Under the pieces are notes generated by a model, which worked only from the letters and a program-made list of their open reading frames with translations, did not search any database and was not told the origin of the DNA. 64,000 bases of DNA. It comes from a virus. The position numbers and the translations under genes are program-made. Location: positions 1 to 64,000 of the IMG/VR virus record IMGVR_UViG_3300025098_000012, one strand, 5' to 3'. This document shows positions 13,646 through 43,608 of this stretch, piece after piece; positions within the stretch are counted from its first letter, which is position 1; each line of letters begins with the position of its first letter.

Positions 13646-13666
13646 CGATGATAAATAAACTAACGA

Positions 13667-15997: not shown

Positions 15998-16058
15998 ATA
16001 TATCTCTCTCTCTTTCCGATAGTTTACAAGAGAGATATGAATATAAATAAACTAACGA

Positions 16059-18449
16059 TTAACCTAACTGAACAAATGCCTCATATAGCTCAGTACCTTC
16101 CTCGATGCCGAACTCTTTGAATACCTTTTTAACTAAGGTGTTTAAGTCCGATTTCTTCTTGATCAAGACAGACTCTCTCGCACTTATAGCACTTTGTACT
16201 TCATTAGTCCAGTGCGGTAAAATGAGCTGATCATAACTTTCGCTCTTAACAGCGTTTAGTTCTTTTGTAGGGATGGGTCCGATGAGGTATAGGACACGAC
16301 TATCGCAGTCATTATTACCTAGACCCTTTGGTAAGTTAGTTCCCTCAGTCAGACCAATGTCGAGATAGAAACGATAACGAACAAGCTCACTAGCGATACC
16401 ACTGTAGAAGCCTTTAAGTTTACCACCACTGTTTGTGACGGTTTTATGAGCTTGCCCTGCTTTCGCTGGTATAGTTTTGTACTTTGGATTATTGTATATA
16501 GTAATGATGTTCTCCACAAAGTCAGACATCTTATAATCCAAACCGTTTGGCCTATACGGAGCAATAAGATCTTCAAGGTCTTTCGTAATCTTTGCAACCT
16601 CAGCGTCAGATGCCACAGAAAGTGCTTCAACCAATCCTTTATAAACGGATCTCGTGACTTTGAAGAACCTTAATCCCTCGACTTCAACTTTGAAGGTCTT
16701 TCCACCTGCTTTTAAAGAGACAGACCCACCGTTTAAGACGATTGCTAACTCAAGATACCAACCTAGAGGTCCTTTATTGCCACCGATAATCTTTTCAACG
16801 ACACCTTGATCCATACATTGGTCGGCAAACTCTTTGATCGCTACCACCTTTTTTTTGTCAGCAAAGACAGCAGGGTTAAAGATGTGCTTCAAACCTAGAG
16901 GTAAAAGAGGCTCTTGATGCTCTTCGATTGTGTCTTGGATAGCTCTCAAGGCTTGAGGGTCGGACTCTCTAAGAGCTAAAGCCCACTCTGTGTCATCAAG
17001 ATACAGGTTAGCATCGAGCATCCAATGAAAGCCCTCTTCGGTGAACATCTTTGACAGCTTTTTCATTTGGTCTAACTTTAGGTTGACCTTAGCGAGATCA
17101 GCAATAGCTTCTCCGAGCTTACCATCGGGTAAACTCATACCACTTACAGCGACTTCTGCCATCTCTTCAGCTTGATCTTCGATCATCTGAACAGCTTGAT
17201 CGGCATCAGTAGAGACTTCGATGTTTTCAATCAACCAACCATCATTAATGAGGTCATACTCTGCATCAGTACGATCAAGCTCATCGAGTTCACCCGAATG
17301 ATAGCTTCTGATAAGCTCATCAAGTTCATCGGTGACTGGGTTCCCTGTCAGTTCAAGAAGCTCTCTAGCGAGAGCATTTGACTCGACACTATCATATACA
17401 CCATTAAAGAAATTTGGCTTCAAGGAGTCTGAGATCAGAGCGTCATTCTTATTAATATGGTCAGATAACAAAAGCCCCTGTAGCCCCTTGAGCCACTTTA
17501 GATGTTGGTTATCAAGACTTCCATCAGTTAACTTTCCTTCGATTTCTTCCAAAGTCTCATCAGACAACCCTTGTTGTTCCATGTACTTTTGGCTGTCGGA
17601 CACACCGAGTAAGTTTTCAAGATGTCCCTCAGCAGAGAGTTGATCAAGTCTGCTGTATTCTTCGCCAGAAGATGATTGACCCTCTGTGGACTCTTGTCTT
17701 ATTTTCTTTCCGTCTACGAGAGCTATTCCTAATGCCCTTCTCTCCTCAAGACTTAGGTAGCGTCCTTTAGAAGCCATCGCACTGAATACACCCTTACGAA
17801 TAGCTTTCATAACTCTCTCAGCGATAGAGCTTCCCCCCTCGACCTTTTCCTCGATCCTTTTCCAAGGGGTTATATATGTTTCCCTACTTTCACTAGACTT
17901 AGGTATTCCACTTTTGCCTGTGACAGCCCACATCGTAGATCTCTGCCAAAGATCGTCAAGAATGTCGCTTCTTAGTCGCCTAAATTCTTTGTTATTTTTA
18001 ACAAATTGATTGAAGGTGATGTTGATGCTTTTAGAGAGAGCTGGTTTGATTTGCTCATAGAGACTGTTCAAGAAGTTTGCGTATCTTGCAACGCTTGCTT
18101 GTCGCCTTCTCATTCGACTTCTAAAACCACCTCCACCTCCACCAAGTTGGTTGAGGATCTTTGTCCCATACTCTGTGGGGGTATCAGAACCAACAGGAGG
18201 GATAGTCATCCCTTGTAACTCTGGTTCACCTGTCATCTGAGAAAGAGCGGCACTCGCCCAATAGAAGAAGATCTTCTTAAGATCTCCATCACTTTGAAGG
18301 TACAGCCTCAGATCAGCTTGCTTTTTCATTCCAGCCGATTTGATATACAGTTCAAGCTCTCTTACAAGCTCTTGAGCAACTTTAGTCTTGTTGTGGAGGT
18401 TAGATTTCTTGATCTGATTTAACATCTGATTTGCTTGTTTTATATTCAT
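16059..18449 (-). CDS. Large paralogous protein B of unknown function (796 aa)
   Basis: First gene of the long leftward block, starting after a 177-bp divergent intergenic region. It is paralogous over its length to the 776-aa product that follows. Near residue 110 it carries a glycine run (GGGGGG) and a basic patch (RSRMRRR) not found in the partner. Shared elements include the almost identical N-terminal 49 residues, SSIAERVMKAIRKGVFSAM, LYLDDTEWALALR, ASELVRYRFYLDIGLTEGT and the ELYEAFVQL ending. The matching sequence TAAATAAACTAACGATTA occurs downstream of both genes, so the duplication unit included the 3' flank. No catalytic motif was seen; function unknown. Confidence 0.75.
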   Translation of the reverse strand: MNIKQANQMLNQIKKSNLHNKTKVAQELVRELELYIKSAGMKKQADLRLYLQSDGDLKKIFFYWASAALSQMTGEPELQGMTIPPVGSDTPTEYGTKILNQLGGGGGGFRSRMRRRQASVARYANFLNSLYEQIKPALSKSINITFNQFVKNNKEFRRLRSDILDDLWQRSTMWAVTGKSGIPKSSESRETYITPWKRIEEKVEGGSSIAERVMKAIRKGVFSAMASKGRYLSLEERRALGIALVDGKKIRQESTEGQSSSGEEYSRLDQLSAEGHLENLLGVSDSQKYMEQQGLSDETLEEIEGKLTDGSLDNQHLKWLKGLQGLLLSDHINKNDALISDSLKPNFFNGVYDSVESNALARELLELTGNPVTDELDELIRSYHSGELDELDRTDAEYDLINDGWLIENIEVSTDADQAVQMIEDQAEEMAEVAVSGMSLPDGKLGEAIADLAKVNLKLDQMKKLSKMFTEEGFHWMLDANLYLDDTEWALALRESDPQALRAIQDTIEEHQEPLLPLGLKHIFNPAVFADKKKVVAIKEFADQCMDQGVVEKIIGGNKGPLGWYLELAIVLNGGSVSLKAGGKTFKVEVEGLRFFKVTRSVYKGLVEALSVASDAEVAKITKDLEDLIAPYRPNGLDYKMSDFVENIITIYNNPKYKTIPAKAGQAHKTVTNSGGKLKGFYSGIASELVRYRFYLDIGLTEGTNLPKGLGNNDCDSRVLYLIGPIPTKELNAVKSESYDQLILPHWTNEVQSAISARESVLIKKKSDLNTLVKKVFKEFGIEEGTELYEAFVQLG

Positions 18450-19899: not shown

Positions 19900-20268
19900 C
19901 TACGGTCTTAAGCCTAAATCTAACAGGGTCTTGTAAACGACTTTATTGACTTCTTTAAGGTCATCAGTCTTTTTAATGACCCGACCATTGACCTCTACGA
20001 TTAAGTTTTTGTAGTCATATCCAGATCCACTGCTAGTGAAACCACTGATAGAAATCTTAGTCTTTGAGGCTTCAACTTTGATAACCTTCTCTCCCTTTCG
20101 GTCGAGGACACTAGTTACTTTGTGTTGCCCTTTCTTGAACATCCACTGTAGCTGTTTCTCAAATCGGCTGAGATCTTGCCACCCAATGTGGTTACTTAGT
20201 AGTCCAAAGAGCTTTGCTTCCATGTACCTAGAAGCGACTCTTTTACTAGAATTTTGATTACTCATCAT
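19900..20268 (-). CDS. Small protein with N-terminal RVASRYM tag (122 aa)
   Basis: After a short Asn/Ser leader the protein reads KRVASRYMEAK, the tag that recurs in three other otherwise unrelated proteins here. The remainder is a small alpha/beta domain (KISISGFTSSGSGYDYKNLI near the middle) that I cannot assign. Its ATGATG start overlaps the end of the holin-like gene (20258-20268), so the two are translationally coupled. Either of the two adjacent ATG codons could be used. No membrane segment or catalytic motif was seen. Confidence 0.75.
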   Translation of the reverse strand: MMSNQNSSKRVASRYMEAKLFGLLSNHIGWQDLSRFEKQLQWMFKKGQHKVTSVLDRKGEKVIKVEASKTKISISGFTSSGSGYDYKNLIVEVNGRVIKKTDDLKEVNKVVYKTLLDLGLRP

Positions 20269-20818
20269 CTGCCTCTTTCTTAGGTTCGGGTGTATCTTCT
20301 ACACCTAGTGATTTCTTGACCTTTGCTTTGAACATCTTGATTACGAACGCATTGATTGCACCAGCACAAGCACCCATATACACATCAATCATCATAAATG
20401 GCTTTGATAAGGTATAGGCGATCCCTGCTCCTGTTAGGACTGCAAAGAGTCTTATTACAGCGTCTGATTTCTCATTGCAGGTTTTGAAGATGAAAGGCTT
20501 AATGATCTGAGTCAGAGCGAGACTCAAGATAGCCGCTACCACTACAAGATAAGCATGACCTACAAAGACATCTTGCATCGTTGGTCTAGTTTCTGATTTC
20601 AAATCAATCGACTCTGCTATGTGTTTACAGGAAACACCACTTTCAGTGATCTCACATTCTTGGTTTTCTGATCCACACAGAAGTTCATTCCCCTCGATGA
20701 TTTCGCAGAGGTCAGCTCCTTCTTCCCCTTTACTACAGAGGATTGTATGAAGATCAACGAACTGACAGTTATCTGGTAGATTAACTAGTGGCTCACTTAT
20801 TGGGATATACTTTTCCAT
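20258..20818 (-). CDS. Holin-like membrane protein with Cys-rich N-terminal domain (186 aa)
   Basis: Three hydrophobic segments are visible at about residues 89-110, 121-138 and 142-163, followed by a basic and then acidic cytoplasmic-type tail (PEPKKEADDE). This arrangement and size are compatible with a class I holin or related small membrane pore. Before the first segment are three cysteine pairs spaced C-x9-C, C-x9-C and C-x8-C (C18/C28, C38/C48, C55/C64). They look like three tandem disulphide-closed hairpins, which would suit a periplasmic N-terminus. The gene follows an 8-bp hairpin that covers its Shine-Dalgarno. An antiholin or an unrelated membrane protein cannot be excluded. Confidence 0.6.
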   Translation of the reverse strand: MEKYIPISEPLVNLPDNCQFVDLHTILCSKGEEGADLCEIIEGNELLCGSENQECEITESGVSCKHIAESIDLKSETRPTMQDVFVGHAYLVVVAAILSLALTQIIKPFIFKTCNEKSDAVIRLFAVLTGAGIAYTLSKPFMMIDVYMGACAGAINAFVIKMFKAKVKKSLGVEDTPEPKKEADDE

Positions 20819-20825
20819 GTTTTTA

Positions 20826-20854
20826 CCTCGCTTCGATTTTTCAATAAAGCGAGG
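20826..20854 (-). promoter_or_regulatory. Hairpin sequestering the ribosome site of the holin-like gene
   Basis: CCTCGCTT (20826-20833) and AAGCGAGG (20847-20854) are exact reverse complements with a 13-nt loop, just upstream of the ATG at 20818. On the leftward mRNA the start-proximal arm contains GCGAGG, the only Shine-Dalgarno-like sequence for the gene. Folding would therefore limit translation. Confidence 0.5.
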
Positions 20855-20878
20855 CGATAAAGAAACTATTAAGCTCTC

Positions 20879-21412
20879 TTACAAATGAGGGGTTCTGTCT
20901 ATTACGATGACATCACCCTCTGAGTGATACTTTTTAGCGAATGACTTCCATACCCTTAGAGCCTTATCAGAGGTAGACTTTTTGTGGCAGTAGTTAGGCA
21001 TGAACAGCAAAGGCAACCTACCATGTTTAAGGAACACTTCTTTGACCACCTCAACATACATTTGAACTCCACACCTCTGGCCTTGTAGGTCTGGGTGGAG
21101 ATAAGAATTGACAACCTCTACAACAAGAACCACAGGTTCATCTTTACTGCTATCATATCGAAACATCTCGTCCTCAAACCAATACTCTTCGGATAACTTT
21201 TCAATGTCATCTGCACAAGCAAAGTGTCCTCTACCCATCTCCTCAAGAGTGTAAGTGCCTACATGGGCTTCACAGTGTCCTCTGTATTCACCATCGACTC
21301 TTAACTCAACACTAACTTTACCACCATCGCTAGACACAACTTCGATAGTGATGTTGCCCTTTTGGTATTTAGCTTTCATGTAGCGACTAGCGACTCTTTG
21401 ATAAGGCTTCAT
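20879..21412 (-). CDS. RVASRY-tagged GNAT-like acetyltransferase (177 aa)
   Basis: Begins MKPYQRVASRYMKAK, the shared tag. The C-terminal half looks like a GNAT fold: a strand (VVLVVEVVNSYLHPDL) leads into LQGQRCGVQMYVEVV at ~109-122, corresponding to the acetyl-CoA pyrophosphate-binding loop (Q/R-x-x-G-x-G/A type). Further on, SDKALRVWKSFAKKY resembles the family's last helix. The second Gly of the loop is not canonical, so activity is unproven. The start overlaps the preceding gene's stop (ATGA). The substrate is unknown. If the tag directs virion packaging, this could be an injected modifier. Confidence 0.65.
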   Translation of the reverse strand: MKPYQRVASRYMKAKYQKGNITIEVVSSDGGKVSVELRVDGEYRGHCEAHVGTYTLEEMGRGHFACADDIEKLSEEYWFEDEMFRYDSSKDEPVVLVVEVVNSYLHPDLQGQRCGVQMYVEVVKEVFLKHGRLPLLFMPNYCHKKSTSDKALRVWKSFAKKYHSEGDVIVIDRTPHL

Positions 21413-22314
21413 ACTGGTTGTCCCTGTTCGTTTACTAAACCTTTAGTGTAGAGGGCATATAACTGTATGCCAACAGCAGGAACTAAGATAGCGTTCCAAC
21501 CGATTGATAGAGACTTAGCGAGCCAACCACCAGGTATGCCTGGGAATAAAAGACTTACGATAAATCCAATCCCACTTTCGGGTAGACTTTCAAGTAAGTC
21601 CGTCCACGAGATCATGCCTAGAAATCCTTTTATCAAGTCTGAGATCTTCCAACTGATCTCTGTAACATTGATCCATATGACCCAATAGAGATATGCTTTA
21701 GCAGGCATCGTAATGAGCTTCAGCAAAGGGTGCTTCTCTAAAAAGTTATCTATCCATTCCGACATATTTTTTGCTCTGCCGACCACAGGTGTGATCGTCT
21801 TTGACAACCATTTACCTAGTTCACCTGTCTTTCCTCCATGCTTTTCAAGTACGCTTTCAATAATGGAAGTGAAGGTAGGAGCGTTAGATGCGTATAGGAA
21901 CAGAAAGTGAATGATCTTACTGTCTTTCTTCATCTTCTTCTTTAGATTACCCCACCATCTCGCACCCTCGTCTAAGAGGTTTTGAAACTTCTTCGATAGT
22001 TCAAAGTAGAGCTTTGCAGGGTTCGTTGATGTGATCCCTAAAACCTCTTTGAACTTTTCCCAAAGTTTAGGAGCTTTTTGAAACGCTTGGTACAGCTCTC
22101 TTAGCTTCTTACCTAGACCTTTGATGATCGCTGTTTTGTTGTGAGCTTGTCGGAGCATACCCTCGCCAAACACGCTCAATACTCGGACATCTATCTCACG
22201 AGTGATTGTGCTTGAGACTCTAGTGTTGGGGCTGTTTTGGATCGCCCACATTGACGCTCTTAATGAAACATTTCTATGGTAATGTCGAGTAGCGACTCTC
22301 TGATATGGCTTCAT
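21409..22314 (-). CDS. RVATR-tagged protein with hydrophobic C-terminal helices (301 aa)
   Basis: Starts MKPYQRVATRHYHRN, a close variant of the RVASRY tag on the neighbouring gene; the identical MKPYQRVA suggests a recently copied leader. Residues ~70-200 are basic amphipathic helices. Hydrophobic stretches follow at about 205-225 (AYLYWVIWINVTEISW), 245-265 (GIGFIVSLLFPGIPGGW) and 272-290, which could be membrane-associated. No family was recognised. AAAGGAG precedes the start, and the stop overlaps the GNAT-like gene. A virion-internal or membrane-interacting protein is possible. Confidence 0.7.
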   Translation of the reverse strand: MKPYQRVATRHYHRNVSLRASMWAIQNSPNTRVSSTITREIDVRVLSVFGEGMLRQAHNKTAIIKGLGKKLRELYQAFQKAPKLWEKFKEVLGITSTNPAKLYFELSKKFQNLLDEGARWWGNLKKKMKKDSKIIHFLFLYASNAPTFTSIIESVLEKHGGKTGELGKWLSKTITPVVGRAKNMSEWIDNFLEKHPLLKLITMPAKAYLYWVIWINVTEISWKISDLIKGFLGMISWTDLLESLPESGIGFIVSLLFPGIPGGWLAKSLSIGWNAILVPAVGIQLYALYTKGLVNEQGQPV

Positions 22315-22348
22315 ATTTATACTCCTTTAATAAGTACAATAGGATGCT

Positions 22349-22356
22349 CATAAATA
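22349..22356 (+). promoter_or_regulatory. Late-promoter-like CATAAATA before the Nudix gene
   Basis: CATAAATA lies 21 nt upstream of the Nudix start, followed by the Shine-Dalgarno GAAAGGAG. It differs from the T4 late consensus TATAAATA at one base. Similar elements precede other rightward units at 18508, 25112 and 49568. Confidence 0.35.
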
Positions 22357-22377
22357 AGTTATTGAAAGGAGTCGGTC

Positions 22378-32442: not shown

Positions 32443-32493
32443 TTGTAGTTCCTTTATACACTGCTTTAGGTGATCTATTATACTAAAGGAAAT

Positions 32494-32949
32494 ATGATGA
32501 GAAATCATAACAAGATGGCAAGTCGAGTTGCATATCGCTACATGAAACAAGCAGGTCTATTGAGTAAGATCGTAGATTTCTTTACCGAGAGTCCTCGTGA
32601 GAAAGAGAAGAAGCCTGTGTTTGATGTCGCTAAAGTCTGGGTGACAGCAGGTATCTATGGGGCTACTATGGGTTGGGTATCAAAGACTCTTAAGCTCAAA
32701 GGCAAAGATACTGCGATCATTGACTACAAAGGGGATAATCTCAAGCTCTCCATCTCACAAGAACGAGTTAGGGGGATGAAGGACAATGGGGGCATCAAAG
32801 GAGACTTCTTTGTAGTGATTTCTTTGACTGGTGTTGATAAGAACATACCTAAGAGTCAGTTAGATAAAGTCTTAGCAGGTATTCTTAGAGAGGTTCGGCT
32901 TGAACCCGACTTTACCGAAACTCCTGTTGAACACCCCAATATGCGTTAG
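32494..32949 (+). CDS. RVAYRYM-tagged hypothetical protein (151 aa)
   Basis: AAAGGA precedes tandem ATG codons. The N-terminus NKMASRVAYRYMKQAGLLSK carries the shared tag, followed by a helix and a basic region. The body is a small alpha/beta domain (IIDYKGDNLKLSIS, GDFFVVISLTGVDK) with similarities in layout, but not obvious sequence, to the tagged 122-aa protein at 19900. Its stop overlaps the converging gene by four bases. It sits alone and rightward among accessory genes, far from the other tagged proteins, which argues that the tag is functional. Confidence 0.7.
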   Translation: MMRNHNKMASRVAYRYMKQAGLLSKIVDFFTESPREKEKKPVFDVAKVWVTAGIYGATMGWVSKTLKLKGKDTAIIDYKGDNLKLSISQERVRGMKDNGGIKGDFFVVISLTGVDKNIPKSQLDKVLAGILREVRLEPDFTETPVEHPNMR

Positions 32950-37573: not shown

Positions 37574-38749
37574 TCAGAAAAAATACTCATTATCATTCCA
37601 TTTAGGTTCGGGTGTTAAACCCTTACTCCAAATGAAGATCGGCTCACAAGTTGGTTGGTCTGTTTTCTGACCACCTCGCTCGGACATACGATAGCCAACC
37701 ACACCCTCATAGGTCGCTCCTAAGTTCTTCATGTGGTCAAGCATTGGTGTGCAGATGTCCTCTCCTTTTTTATCTGCAATGTTGATTGCTATCCGACCAC
37801 CTTCTTTGAGTACAGACCAACATTTAGTGAGGGTAGCGAGTAAGAAATCATTCACCCAATCATTAAGGTTTGGATAACGCTTCCACGATTGAGTCTCCTC
37901 CTCACTATATCTCTCGATGTCGAAGTAAGGAGGACTCGTGAAAACGAAGTCTACACTTATGTCAGATAAATCAGCATCCTCAGCAGGGGAACAGATAAAC
38001 CTAGTCGTTTTGCCTGTATCACAGAGGCTGACGATTTGCTTGTATGGCTCATGGAGCTGAGTATTAGGATCTATACCTATGTACGACTCAGCGTTCGAGG
38101 CGAGGAAGCCTACAAGCCTATCACCCCAACCAGCCGAGAAATCTAAGACGCTTTTGGGTTGGAACAGGTCATAGAGAGCTTTAGCCGACTCAGCTTTAAA
38201 CTGACTCGCAGTATAGGTGTGCATCTTTAAGGCTCTTCTGAGGGTTTGCTTATTGACTCCACCTCTCTCATAGATGTCTCTTTCACAAATGCCGAAGAAG
38301 CATCTTAGGAACGAGTTGCTTCTACTCGCATTGACCCACTCATCATAGGGTGAGTTTCCTTGTTTACGATAGCTACATTTCATTCTCTGTTCTTGGGTGA
38401 ACAGATTGGAAACAGTTTTCCCTCTATAGTAGTTATCAAGGTAGACTGACTTGCCTAGATAACTTGTGTCTAAGGGTTTAGCTTGACGAGGAGCGACCCA
38501 CCCTTCAAAGCAGAATGGATCTTTCCTTGCTTTGAGGGATTTAAAATCCTCGATTGCCATCTCTCTTGTGTACTCGAAGTACGGATAGGGCAAAGACTCA
38601 ATAATGGGTGCTAGATGGTCTTTGATCTGTTCCTTACTATATGTCTCACGAAGCATACTCCATTCGTTAGGGAGTATGTGAAGATACCCATCTTTAATGT
38701 ACTCGATGTCATCTAGCGAATTAAGATTGGTCTTATATTCAAAGTACAT
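37574..38749 (-). CDS. SPPY-type SAM-dependent methyltransferase, cassette copy C (391 aa)
   Basis: SAM-binding motif I is LDFSAGWGDRLVGF (~202-215), the next strand gives YIGIDPN, and the catalytic loop is FTSPPYFD (~270-277), the S/D-P-P-Y class used by amino-methyltransferases of DNA (N6-adenine or N4-cytosine). A ~200-residue N-terminal domain (SNSFLRCFFGI, THTASQFK-like region) precedes it and is probably substrate-recognising. It is paralogous to the two 401-aa products upstream but more diverged. It is the last intact gene of the modification cassette and directly abuts the PLP gene. The methyl acceptor could be a modified base rather than A or C. Confidence 0.8.
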   Translation of the reverse strand: MYFEYKTNLNSLDDIEYIKDGYLHILPNEWSMLRETYSKEQIKDHLAPIIESLPYPYFEYTREMAIEDFKSLKARKDPFCFEGWVAPRQAKPLDTSYLGKSVYLDNYYRGKTVSNLFTQEQRMKCSYRKQGNSPYDEWVNASRSNSFLRCFFGICERDIYERGGVNKQTLRRALKMHTYTASQFKAESAKALYDLFQPKSVLDFSAGWGDRLVGFLASNAESYIGIDPNTQLHEPYKQIVSLCDTGKTTRFICSPAEDADLSDISVDFVFTSPPYFDIERYSEEETQSWKRYPNLNDWVNDFLLATLTKCWSVLKEGGRIAINIADKKGEDICTPMLDHMKNLGATYEGVVGYRMSERGGQKTDQPTCEPIFIWSKGLTPEPKWNDNEYFF

Positions 38750-41163: not shown

Positions 41164-42369
41164 TTATACTCCAAAGTAGCTATCTTGAGTCCACTTAGGT
41201 TCGGGGGCTGAACCCTTACTCCAAATGAAAATCGGCTCACAGAATACATCCATCTTGGATAGCTCATCATTTAATGAGTGATGGTTTCCTGGTCTCTTTG
41301 CCATACGATAACCAATCACTCCCTCATAGTTTGCCCCTAATGAATTCATATACTCGATCATGGGCTGACACACTCGGATGTTTCCTCTTACTTTATCGGA
41401 GATGTTTACGCATATCCTCCCTCCCTCTTCTAAGCAATCCCAACATTGCTTGAGGGTTGGGTAAAGAAACCCATTCAGCCAATCGTCAGTCTCTGGATAA
41501 CGCTTCCATGATTGAGTCTCTTCTTGACTATATTTCTCGGTGTCGAAATAAGGTGGACTCGTGAAAACGAAGTCTACTTTAACATCGGACAGGTCAGCAT
41601 CTTCGGCAGGTGAACAGATGAACCTAGTGGTCTTACTCGTAGAACAATAATCAGCGATCTTCTGATAAGGTTCATGTAACTTTGTGTTAGGGTCGAGTCC
41701 TACATAGGACTCGGCATCAGAAGCGAGGAATCCAACTAATCTATCGCCCCATCCCATAGAGAAATCCAATACTCTTTTAGCTCCGAAGAAGTTATACATA
41801 GCCTTAGCTAAAGTAGGTTTGAACTGTGCAGGGATATAACCAGACATACCGATAGCGTTTACAAGTATCTTGCTGTTCACACCTTTTGACGGATCATACA
41901 ATGTCCATAAAGGTCTAAGGAACGCTCTCTTTTTGGACTTGAGGTTAGTTCGTGTCCATTGTCTCATTGCACTTGGGAACTGCTTATGGTCTACCTCTAA
42001 ACGCATAGGTTCACTATATTGATTAGAGACTTTGAGTCCTTTGTTATTAGGTGCGAAGTAAAGATACTTACCTTTGTAAGTATGGTCTTCGTCTAACTGA
42101 CATCGAGGCAATCCCCAAGCACCCGATTGAGGGATCATGTAATCGGACTGAACCTCCAACCAATCTTTCTTGATCTCTTGTGGTGTGTACTTAGTGAGGG
42201 GGTAAGGTAAATCTTCAATCTTTGCAGACAGATAATCAGTGATCTCATCTCTGCTAAAGCTATCTACCATTTCTAACCACTGATGGGGTGGGATAAAGAT
42301 TTCATCCCCTTTCAAAACCTCATACTCTTCTAGGTTATCTTTTTTGGTTTTTTCATAGTCAAAGAACAT
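41164..42369 (-). CDS. SPPY-type methyltransferase, cassette copy A (401 aa)
   Basis: Motif I LDFSMGWGDRLVGF (~201-214) and catalytic FTSPPYFDTEKYS (~269-281) define the enzyme class. The sequence is roughly three quarters identical by eye to the 401-aa product upstream, with the same length. Differences are spread through the N-terminal domain (for example SAMRQWTRTNLKSKKRAF against SAMTQWTRIGMKGDKRYF-like text), the likely recognition region. The leader CTTGAAAGGATTTAAGT is shared with the upstream copy, so the duplication included the ribosome site. It ends 3 bp before the TS-like gene. Confidence 0.85.
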   Translation of the reverse strand: MFFDYEKTKKDNLEEYEVLKGDEIFIPPHQWLEMVDSFSRDEITDYLSAKIEDLPYPLTKYTPQEIKKDWLEVQSDYMIPQSGAWGLPRCQLDEDHTYKGKYLYFAPNNKGLKVSNQYSEPMRLEVDHKQFPSAMRQWTRTNLKSKKRAFLRPLWTLYDPSKGVNSKILVNAIGMSGYIPAQFKPTLAKAMYNFFGAKRVLDFSMGWGDRLVGFLASDAESYVGLDPNTKLHEPYQKIADYCSTSKTTRFICSPAEDADLSDVKVDFVFTSPPYFDTEKYSQEETQSWKRYPETDDWLNGFLYPTLKQCWDCLEEGGRICVNISDKVRGNIRVCQPMIEYMNSLGANYEGVIGYRMAKRPGNHHSLNDELSKMDVFCEPIFIWSKGSAPEPKWTQDSYFGV

Positions 42370-42402: not shown

Positions 42403-43608
42403 TTATATCTTAAAGTAAGTATCTTGAGTCCATTTAGGTTCGGGAGCTGAACCCTTACTCCAAATGAAAATCGGTTCGCAAAACACATTTACCTTAGACA
42501 GATCCTCGTTCAATGAGTGATGGTTTCCTGGTCTCTTCGACATCCTATAACCAATCACTCCCTCGTAAGTAGCACCTAATGACTCCATGTATTCAATCAT
42601 GGGTTGGCATACTCGTATATCACCATAAACCTTGTCTGATATATTGACGCAGATCCGTCCTCCGTCTTCTAATACCTCCCAACATTTTTTAAGAGTCGGG
42701 TAAAGAAATCCATTGAGCCAGTCATCTGTTTTGGGGTATCTCTTCCAACTCTGAGTATCTTCTTGGCTATACTTCTCGGTATCAAAGTAAGGAGGGCTTG
42801 TGAAGATAAAGTCTACTTTAACATCAGTTAGGTCTGCATCCTCAGCTGGAGAACAAATGAACTTAGTTTCTTTGTTTGCATTACAGTACGAATCTATTTG
42901 TCCATAAGGTTCATGGAGCTTAGTGTTAGGGTCGAGTCCTACATAGGACTCAGCGTCAGAAGCCAGAAACCCTACGAGCCTATCGCCCCACCCCATTGAG
43001 AAATCTAAGACCTTCTTTGCACCGAAGAAGTTATACATAGCTTTAGCTAGTGTTGGTTTGAACTGTGCAGGTATGTAATAAGCCATATTTATAGCGTTAA
43101 AGAGCATTTTCCTATTAACCCCTTTAGACCTGTCGTATAGGGTGAAAAAGGGTCTAAGGAAGTATCTCTTATCGCCTTTCATCCCTATACGAGTCCATTG
43201 AGTCATAGCACATTTGTACTCTCGATGATCTACTAATACTCTTGCGAACTCGGTGAACTGATTAGAGACTTTGAGTCCTTTGTTATTAGGTGCAAAGTAA
43301 AGATGCCTACCTTTATAAGTATGGTCACCATCTAACTGACATCGAGGCAATCCCCACTCTCCTGTGATTAGAGGCATATAGTCCGACTGAGTATCTAGCC
43401 AATCACGATGCACTTCTTGAGGAGTATATTTAGTATATGGGAATGGCAGTCCTTCAATCTTGCTTGATAGGTAAGTGATGATCTCATCACGAGTAAACTT
43501 ATCAAGCATCTCTGACCACTGATGAGGGGGTATGAAGATCTCTTGTCCTCTTACGACATCATATTCCTCTATGTCTTCTTTGGGTTTCTTTTCATAATCA
43601 AAAAACAT
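42403..43608 (-). CDS. SPPY-type methyltransferase, cassette copy B (401 aa)
   Basis: Same architecture as copy A: N-terminal domain ~1-195 with NKGLKVSNQF and AQFKPTLAKAMYNFFGAK, motif I LDFSMGWGDRL, YVGLDPN, catalytic FTSPPYFDTEKYS and a conserved C-terminal FCEPIFIWSKGSAPEPKW. It differs from copy A mainly in the N-terminal domain. The 33-bp spacer after it and the spacer before it are near repeats (ACTTATAAGATTATA is shared), marking the boundaries of tandem duplication. Two close copies retained intact suggest either dosage need or different targets. Confidence 0.85.
   Translation of the reverse strand: MFFDYEKKPKEDIEEYDVVRGQEIFIPPHQWSEMLDKFTRDEIITYLSSKIEGLPFPYTKYTPQEVHRDWLDTQSDYMPLITGEWGLPRCQLDGDHTYKGRHLYFAPNNKGLKVSNQFTEFARVLVDHREYKCAMTQWTRIGMKGDKRYFLRPFFTLYDRSKGVNRKMLFNAINMAYYIPAQFKPTLAKAMYNFFGAKKVLDFSMGWGDRLVGFLASDAESYVGLDPNTKLHEPYGQIDSYCNANKETKFICSPAEDADLTDVKVDFIFTSPPYFDTEKYSQEDTQSWKRYPKTDDWLNGFLYPTLKKCWEVLEDGGRICVNISDKVYGDIRVCQPMIEYMESLGATYEGVIGYRMSKRPGNHHSLNEDLSKVNVFCEPIFIWSKGSAPEPKWTQDTYFKI

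Follow-up and report, generated by a model that had tools for sequence, protein, structure and literature searches.

A short portable peptide on unrelated proteins of a large phage as a probable signal for loading the prohead

The core proteins of phage T4 are described as associating via a targeting sequence (PMC5694885), and, as far as the cited passages go, the T4 internal proteins have nothing in common beyond this sequence (PMC12373910, PMC5694885). That is, a short leader is given as the only common part among injected proteins that are otherwise unrelated (PMC3012670, PMC12373910, PMC5694885). In phage P1, an N-terminal stretch of DarB, of more than 9 and at most 30 residues, is reported to target this head-packaged protein, and the same passages describe no recognisable consensus in common among the Dar proteins (PMC9024508). 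The polyvalent proteins of phages and conjugative elements are described as multidomain proteins, with ADP-ribosyltransferase, GNAT and metallopeptidase domains, which are thought to be packaged and injected (PMC5512222).

Here we describe a short peptide, called the tag below, which marks otherwise unrelated proteins in the window (the whole stretch analyzed, the first 64,000 nt of a phage record of 226,698 bases) and elsewhere in the record. We think that the best explanation, and a probable one, is that the tag loads proteins into the prohead core in a manner resembling the capsid-targeting sequence (CTS) of T4. As with the internal proteins and Alt of T4, so far as the works named above describe them, a short peptide marks unrelated proteins, here nine different bodies; the cargo includes ADP-ribosyltransferases, and in T4 also small counter-defence proteins. 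As in a T4-type system, the phage has a prohead protease, a portal match and, by reading of the sequence only, an acidic scaffold-like protein. The tag differs from the T4 CTS in being also C-terminal or internal and, judged by its position, apparently working from there. The letters of the T4 CTS also differ from those of the tag. In encapsulins, a short linear cargo-loading peptide, typically C-terminal, loads unrelated proteins into a shell; this is another shell system, and its likeness to the tag is one of description. The P1 DarB signal, as presented in the account cited above, is likewise a short signal peptide, whereas here one motif marks many families. The enzyme types of the tagged proteins match the types proposed to be injected among polyvalent proteins; the difference is that many cargoes here are single-domain and united by the tag, the cited passages on polyvalent proteins giving no common address motif (PMC5512222).

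The original prediction had claimed four window ORFs that begin with nearly the same peptide. All four are present with their peptides at the positions shown in Table 1, and in each of them the tag stands at the N-terminus; in other proteins, however, it can also be C-terminal or internal, and the description of the tag as N-terminal needs correction to this extent. The 186-aa gene is the first and the 122-aa tagged gene the last in one unit. In relatives, the 122-aa module follows a CCA/polyA-polymerase-like protein within one fused polypeptide. A paralogue of the 177-aa protein, located at 186.3 kb of the record, is also tagged, and the 301-aa protein is, by reading of its sequence, helical with a hydrophobic C-terminal half. 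The window proteins searched had no PHROGs or Pfam match at E 1e-3 (the PHROGs search being made without the 151-aa protein), and a search for near DNA among phages gave no match.

Table 1. Positions of the tagged proteins, leaders, promoter-like elements and neighbouring features (window positions unless another sequence is named).
Feature	Position	Strand	Remarks
122-aa tagged protein	19900-20268	-	peptide KRVASRYMEAK; small alpha/beta domain
Tag core RVASRY of 122-aa protein	20224..20241	-	in SSKRVASRYMEAK
186-aa membrane-like protein without tag	20258..20818	-	by reading of sequence
177-aa tagged protein	20879-21412	-	peptide MKPYQRVASRYMKAK; GNAT fold
Tag core RVASRY of 177-aa protein	21380..21397	-	in MKPYQRVASRYMKAK
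301-aa tagged protein	21409-22314	-	peptide MKPYQRVATRHY
Tag core RVATRH of 301-aa protein	22282..22299	-	in MKPYQRVATRHY
151-aa tagged protein	32494 (ATG) to 32949	+	peptide SRVAYRYMKQA
Tag core RVAYRY of 151-aa protein	32524..32541	+	in NKMASRVAYRYMKQA
Element TAGTTTCTTTAT ahead of 186-aa/122-aa unit	20857..20868	-	score 17.3; 51 bases before start codon
Weak element ATAACTTATTTATGAG ahead of 301-aa/177-aa unit	22347..22362	-	score 9.2; 48 bases before start codon
Weak element GTAGTTCCTTTATACA ahead of 151-aa gene	32445..32460	+	score 8.3; 52 bases before start codon
Element ahead of 346-aa tail/baseplate-region gene	13651..13662	-	role by reading
Element ahead of 776-aa tail-region gene	16043..16054	-	role by reading
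ATAGTTTATTTAT in the window	3659; 13651; 16043; 20857; 49548		also in other stretches
Paralogues of 776 and 796 aa	13667-15997; 16059-18449	-	start MNIKQA[TN]QML
Methyltransferase-like trio	37574-38749; 41164-42369; 42403-43608	-	by reading
Three adjacent tagged HELVH-containing proteins	G000 221.2-226.7 kb (L056:5219-10699)		tag internal; C-terminal; N-terminal + internal, in order
Head loci with type IB topoisomerase domain, examples	L344:5490-9236; L366:666-9170		
Second leader in G000, 12 places, examples	L055:918-1208; L056:3110-3439; L115:9599-10114; L115:12395-12838	-; +; -; -	
Third leader, single copies	G000:134475-134564; G001:12996-13085		

The consensus of the tag is approximately S-A-[KS]-[RK]-V-A-S-[RK]-[YFW]-[LM]-K-A, roughly S-A-K-R-V-A-S-R-Y-L-K-A, that is, a short, basic, amphipathic helix. 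At the DNA level, the pattern R[VI]AxR[YH] matched the 226,698-b record 8 times, against 1 match for the reversed pattern. One match, at 194339, arose by chance and falls in a fragment of 21 aa; the other 7 are within real ORFs, of which 3 are outside the window. The search for further tagged ORFs that the original prediction had proposed was made with an unbiased matrix, which was trained on 25 tags from other genomes with the tags of homologous proteins left out. The matrix was applied to 150 ORFs in 7 stretches (about 140 kb), 5 of which had been picked for motif hits or head genes. Twelve of the 150 ORFs scored at least 15.8 and the next best 10.7, while shuffles expect 0.05 at 14 or above; the two unselected stretches held 4 (the window) and 0 (64-84 kb) of the high-scoring ORFs. 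In 8 of the 12 ORFs, no more than about 10 residues separate the tag from a plausible start; in 2 it lies within 16 residues of the end and in 2 internally, and a third internal copy was found in a protein that is also tagged at its N-terminus. Searched with a profile of the tag, this record gave 12 matches and a 375,691-base relative gave 13; the E-values are partly circular because the profile was built on 16 tags of these two sequences. The letter strings RVASRY, RVAARY and RVAHRY had no occurrence in a text search of the literature.

When the tags were masked, the 12 tagged proteins fell into nine unrelated groups, made up of two GNATs, three related HELVH-containing proteins (metallopeptidase-like by reading of their sequences) and seven singletons. 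An ADP-ribosyltransferase (E 1.9e-12) is among the tagged proteins of the 375-kb relative. By AlphaFold, run with small alignments, the 177-aa protein is predicted to take a GNAT fold (mean pLDDT 78.9), and of the 50 PDB matches listed for this model almost every one is a GNAT, the best at E 1.1e-3 (AtaT, GCN5, TacT3); this agrees with the earlier description of the protein as GNAT-like. The model of the 122-aa protein (mean pLDDT 82.9) is a small domain that matched no known fold. In both models the first 20 residues, which hold the tag, form a low-confidence helix apart from the folded domain.

Two of the four window proteins read as short tag-strand-helix proteins, and this would fit the explanation that the resemblance arose by chance or that a single conserved domain contains the tag. 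We consider this extremely improbable, as it is contradicted by the matrix statistics (12/150 ORFs) and by the enrichment of the motif in head loci described below, and as the bodies do not match: the 177-aa protein has the GNAT fold and the 122-aa protein no matched fold. Two more specific forms of the idea were rejected. The 122-aa and 151-aa proteins are not paralogues, since a profile comparison aligned the 23-column tag region only, with a probability of 10; and the tag is not a piece of one domain family, since the masked bodies do not match and the profile comparison aligns the tag only. That is, the four window proteins are not one domain family, and the claim that their bodies are unrelated is borne out.

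Starting from a domain of one tagged head-locus protein, we collected 112 related contigs and retained 80; one parsing expression applied to these loci read all but 28 of them. We counted in them a strict motif, [KR][VIL]A.[RK][YFHW][LMVIA] (in short, [KR]VAxR[YFW][LM]). Among 948 non-identical ORFs of the 80 head loci, the motif occurred 6 times at the N-terminus, 15 times at the C-terminus and 43 times in the middle, against shuffle expectations of 0.28, 0.10 and 2.04, respectively. The corresponding counts were 0, 0 and 14 for the reversed pattern, against which the middle count of 43 is to be set, and 3, 2 and 1 for a permuted pattern. Only identical proteins or those with identical last 50 aa were removed from these counts, and homology between loci remains in them. 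At least one strict match was present in 31 of the 80 loci. With a loose motif, 29 of 72 related head loci had a terminal tag on another protein; 43 of the 72 had none, and this counts against the loading of cargo. Seven of the 19 N-terminal matches of the loose motif belong to one unrelated conserved family (KVAMDFAxRCDLLSD), which the strict motif leaves out. Genome-wide, 8 of 10 further large relatives had 1-8 matches of the tag profile at E <= 0.01. Phage G, Tunturi_5 and Stormageddon, which are related in portal or protease, had no tag by profile (3/3), and this also counts against cargo loading. In the distant LR745208, there were 10 pattern matches against 5 for the reversed pattern, so that the pattern count by itself shows nothing there, and two weak profile matches.

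The position of the tag changes within families. In the family matching HAD_SAK_1 of Pfam (E 1.3e-18 in this phage, 1.7e-24 in L344), the tag is N-terminal in this phage, G001 and a third contig, C-terminal in L343, L344 and L345, and mid-protein in the fusions of L347 and L354; 6 of the 16 listed homologues have no tag. In proteins with the topoisomerase IB domain (E 6e-29), the tagged end is the N-terminal one in L355 and the C-terminal one in L343 and L344. Among polymerase-type nucleotidyltransferases, it is C-terminal in L359 and forms the joint to the 122-aa module in G001, and one protein is built as GNAT-tag-GNAT. Untagged members are present in every family, which is a further point against cargo loading. 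Judged from these sequences, the tag is a portable linear signal, and neither a domain nor confined to the N-terminus, because one family (HAD_SAK_1) carries it at either end. The C-terminal and internal tags rule out a strictly N-terminal leader. The parallel with T4 drawn in the original prediction therefore needs correction: the tag is common to unrelated proteins as in T4, but it is not simply a cleaved N-terminal leader, as it also stands at C-termini and domain joints.

These changes of position also bear on the explanation that the tag is a functionless by-product of gene duplication, in which a start-of-gene cassette was copied onto new bodies. Starts with MKPYQRVA are nearly identical on several bodies, and upstream DNA is common to the genes of a second leader (leader B, described below), as such copying would leave them. 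We regard this explanation as very unlikely, because the codons of the tag differ between copies, tags stand at C-termini and joints as well, and the tag has changed ends within one family. That is, a tag that shifts ends within families is neither a remnant of a domain nor an artefact of gene starts.

Tagged genes of relatives are located between the genes for portal and prohead protease. The gene order in L344 is portal, 142-aa tagged protein, tagged HAD, tagged topoisomerase, PAIGMVD/Zn-ribbon protein and prohead protease. Among annotated phages, only LR745208 (uncultured) matches the PAIGMVD/Zn-ribbon domain. In this phage, the genes of a C-tagged 259-aa and an internally tagged 1081-aa protein are directly upstream of the prohead protease gene. 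The protease, for which the original prediction had recommended a search, was found by its match to phrog_18299 (E 1.8e-15), and the portal matches phrog_16240 (E 8.3e-32). A type IB (eukaryotic-type) topoisomerase domain is encoded between portal and prohead protease in the head loci L343-L381. This domain is often part of a giant fusion that bears 2-4 tags and can reach 2,834 aa. Several effector domains per polypeptide occur in such head-locus fusions of relatives, and not in the four window proteins.

The tags at the joints of these fused proteins, and the prohead protease encoded beside tagged genes, would be expected if the tag were a recognition or cutting site at which this protease trims and splits large multidomain head-locus proteins during maturation. 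However, many tags lie only about 5-20 residues from a free end, where cutting would gain little, and no constant residue follows the tag; we think that this explanation is unlikely. Loading of the prohead does not need cleavage of the tag, and cleavage as a general event is unlikely because tags are also found at C-termini.

A promoter-like element, ATAGTTTATTTAT, was derived from eight sites, none of which lies ahead of a tagged gene. It scored at least 13 at 22 places against 3.6 expected. In all 8 tagged units, the best site of this type lies 44-57 bases upstream of the start codon, with scores of 20.2, 19.5, 17.3, 17.1, 13.8, 9.2, 8.3 and 5.6; the last three are weak and count against cargo loading. 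Twelve comparison genes, most of them named by reading of their sequences, scored at most 7.5, the value of the non-virion control UvrD; the portal gene is without the element (1.7), and this too counts against cargo loading. The element also precedes genes of the tail and head regions. It is seen about 45-60 bases upstream of the starts of virion, tagged and leader-B genes. The two paralogues MNIKQA[TN]QML in Table 1 each lie behind such an element.

It may also be supposed that the tag directs proteins within the infected cell, to the membrane, the nucleoid, the phage DNA or a replication site, with no link to the virion. A basic amphipathic helix fits binding of this kind, and the bodies include enzymes able to act in the infected cell. 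We consider this unlikely, since the tagged genes are syntenic with portal and protease, and since the element is common to tail and head genes and not to most of the replication genes tested.

Taken together, the unrelated bodies, the effector-like enzymes, the synteny with the head locus and the element common to virion genes suggest a docking signal that is read during head assembly. The claim of the original prediction that the tag sorts proteins into the virion for injection agrees with all four; packaging and injection, like late timing and binding in the prohead interior, are steps that we infer. We think it probable that the tag is a portable docking signal which some part of the prohead interior, be it core, scaffold, portal or protease, would read, and that proteins tagged at either terminus or at a flexible joint would be gathered into the prohead core during head assembly, late in infection. 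They would then stay in the head with the packaged DNA, enter the next host with it and act there as early effectors, among them an acetyltransferase, an ADP-ribosyltransferase, RNA-repair HAD and nucleotidyltransferase proteins, topoisomerase IB and peptidase-like proteins. If the tag loads the head in this way, sequence alone would reveal which effectors many uncultured large phages inject, the many tagged proteins annotated without function would be candidates for counter-defence or host takeover, and phage heads could be loaded by means of a small tag placed at either terminus of a protein.

The tag is not the only repeated leader in these phages. Five large phages have 12, 31, 12, 18 and 27 frames that start with the second leader, MRR[ST]ASE[IV]IRNLExRIARLE, and LR745208 and Tunturi_5 have none. 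It heads many small proteins that are unrelated to each other and whose genes have conserved upstream DNA; in this phage, nine unrelated bodies were counted among the 10 genes examined, most of which have upstream DNA in common that includes the promoter-like element. Among the second-leader matches listed from viral contigs, most start 8 residues after an ATG. Its string RIARLE was found in the literature text search in 4 papers, all with unrelated titles. A third leader, MTTLRSKLIRLAHENPALRPQLLPLLKEA (LRSKLIRLAHENPALRPxLLPLLKEA), stands on 11 frames in the distant LR745208, and this phage (G000) and G001 each have a single copy. The clade may thus use several address labels. We put forward only tentatively, as a possibility that we hold somewhat doubtful, that the tag and the two leaders form a position-independent packaging code which sorts dozens of proteins, perhaps into different virion compartments. 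If this were true, one could read from the sequence of an uncultured phage the full set of effectors that it injects.

Elsewhere in the window, three similar and consecutive methyltransferase-like genes (Table 1) stand with thymidylate-synthase-like and other metabolism genes.
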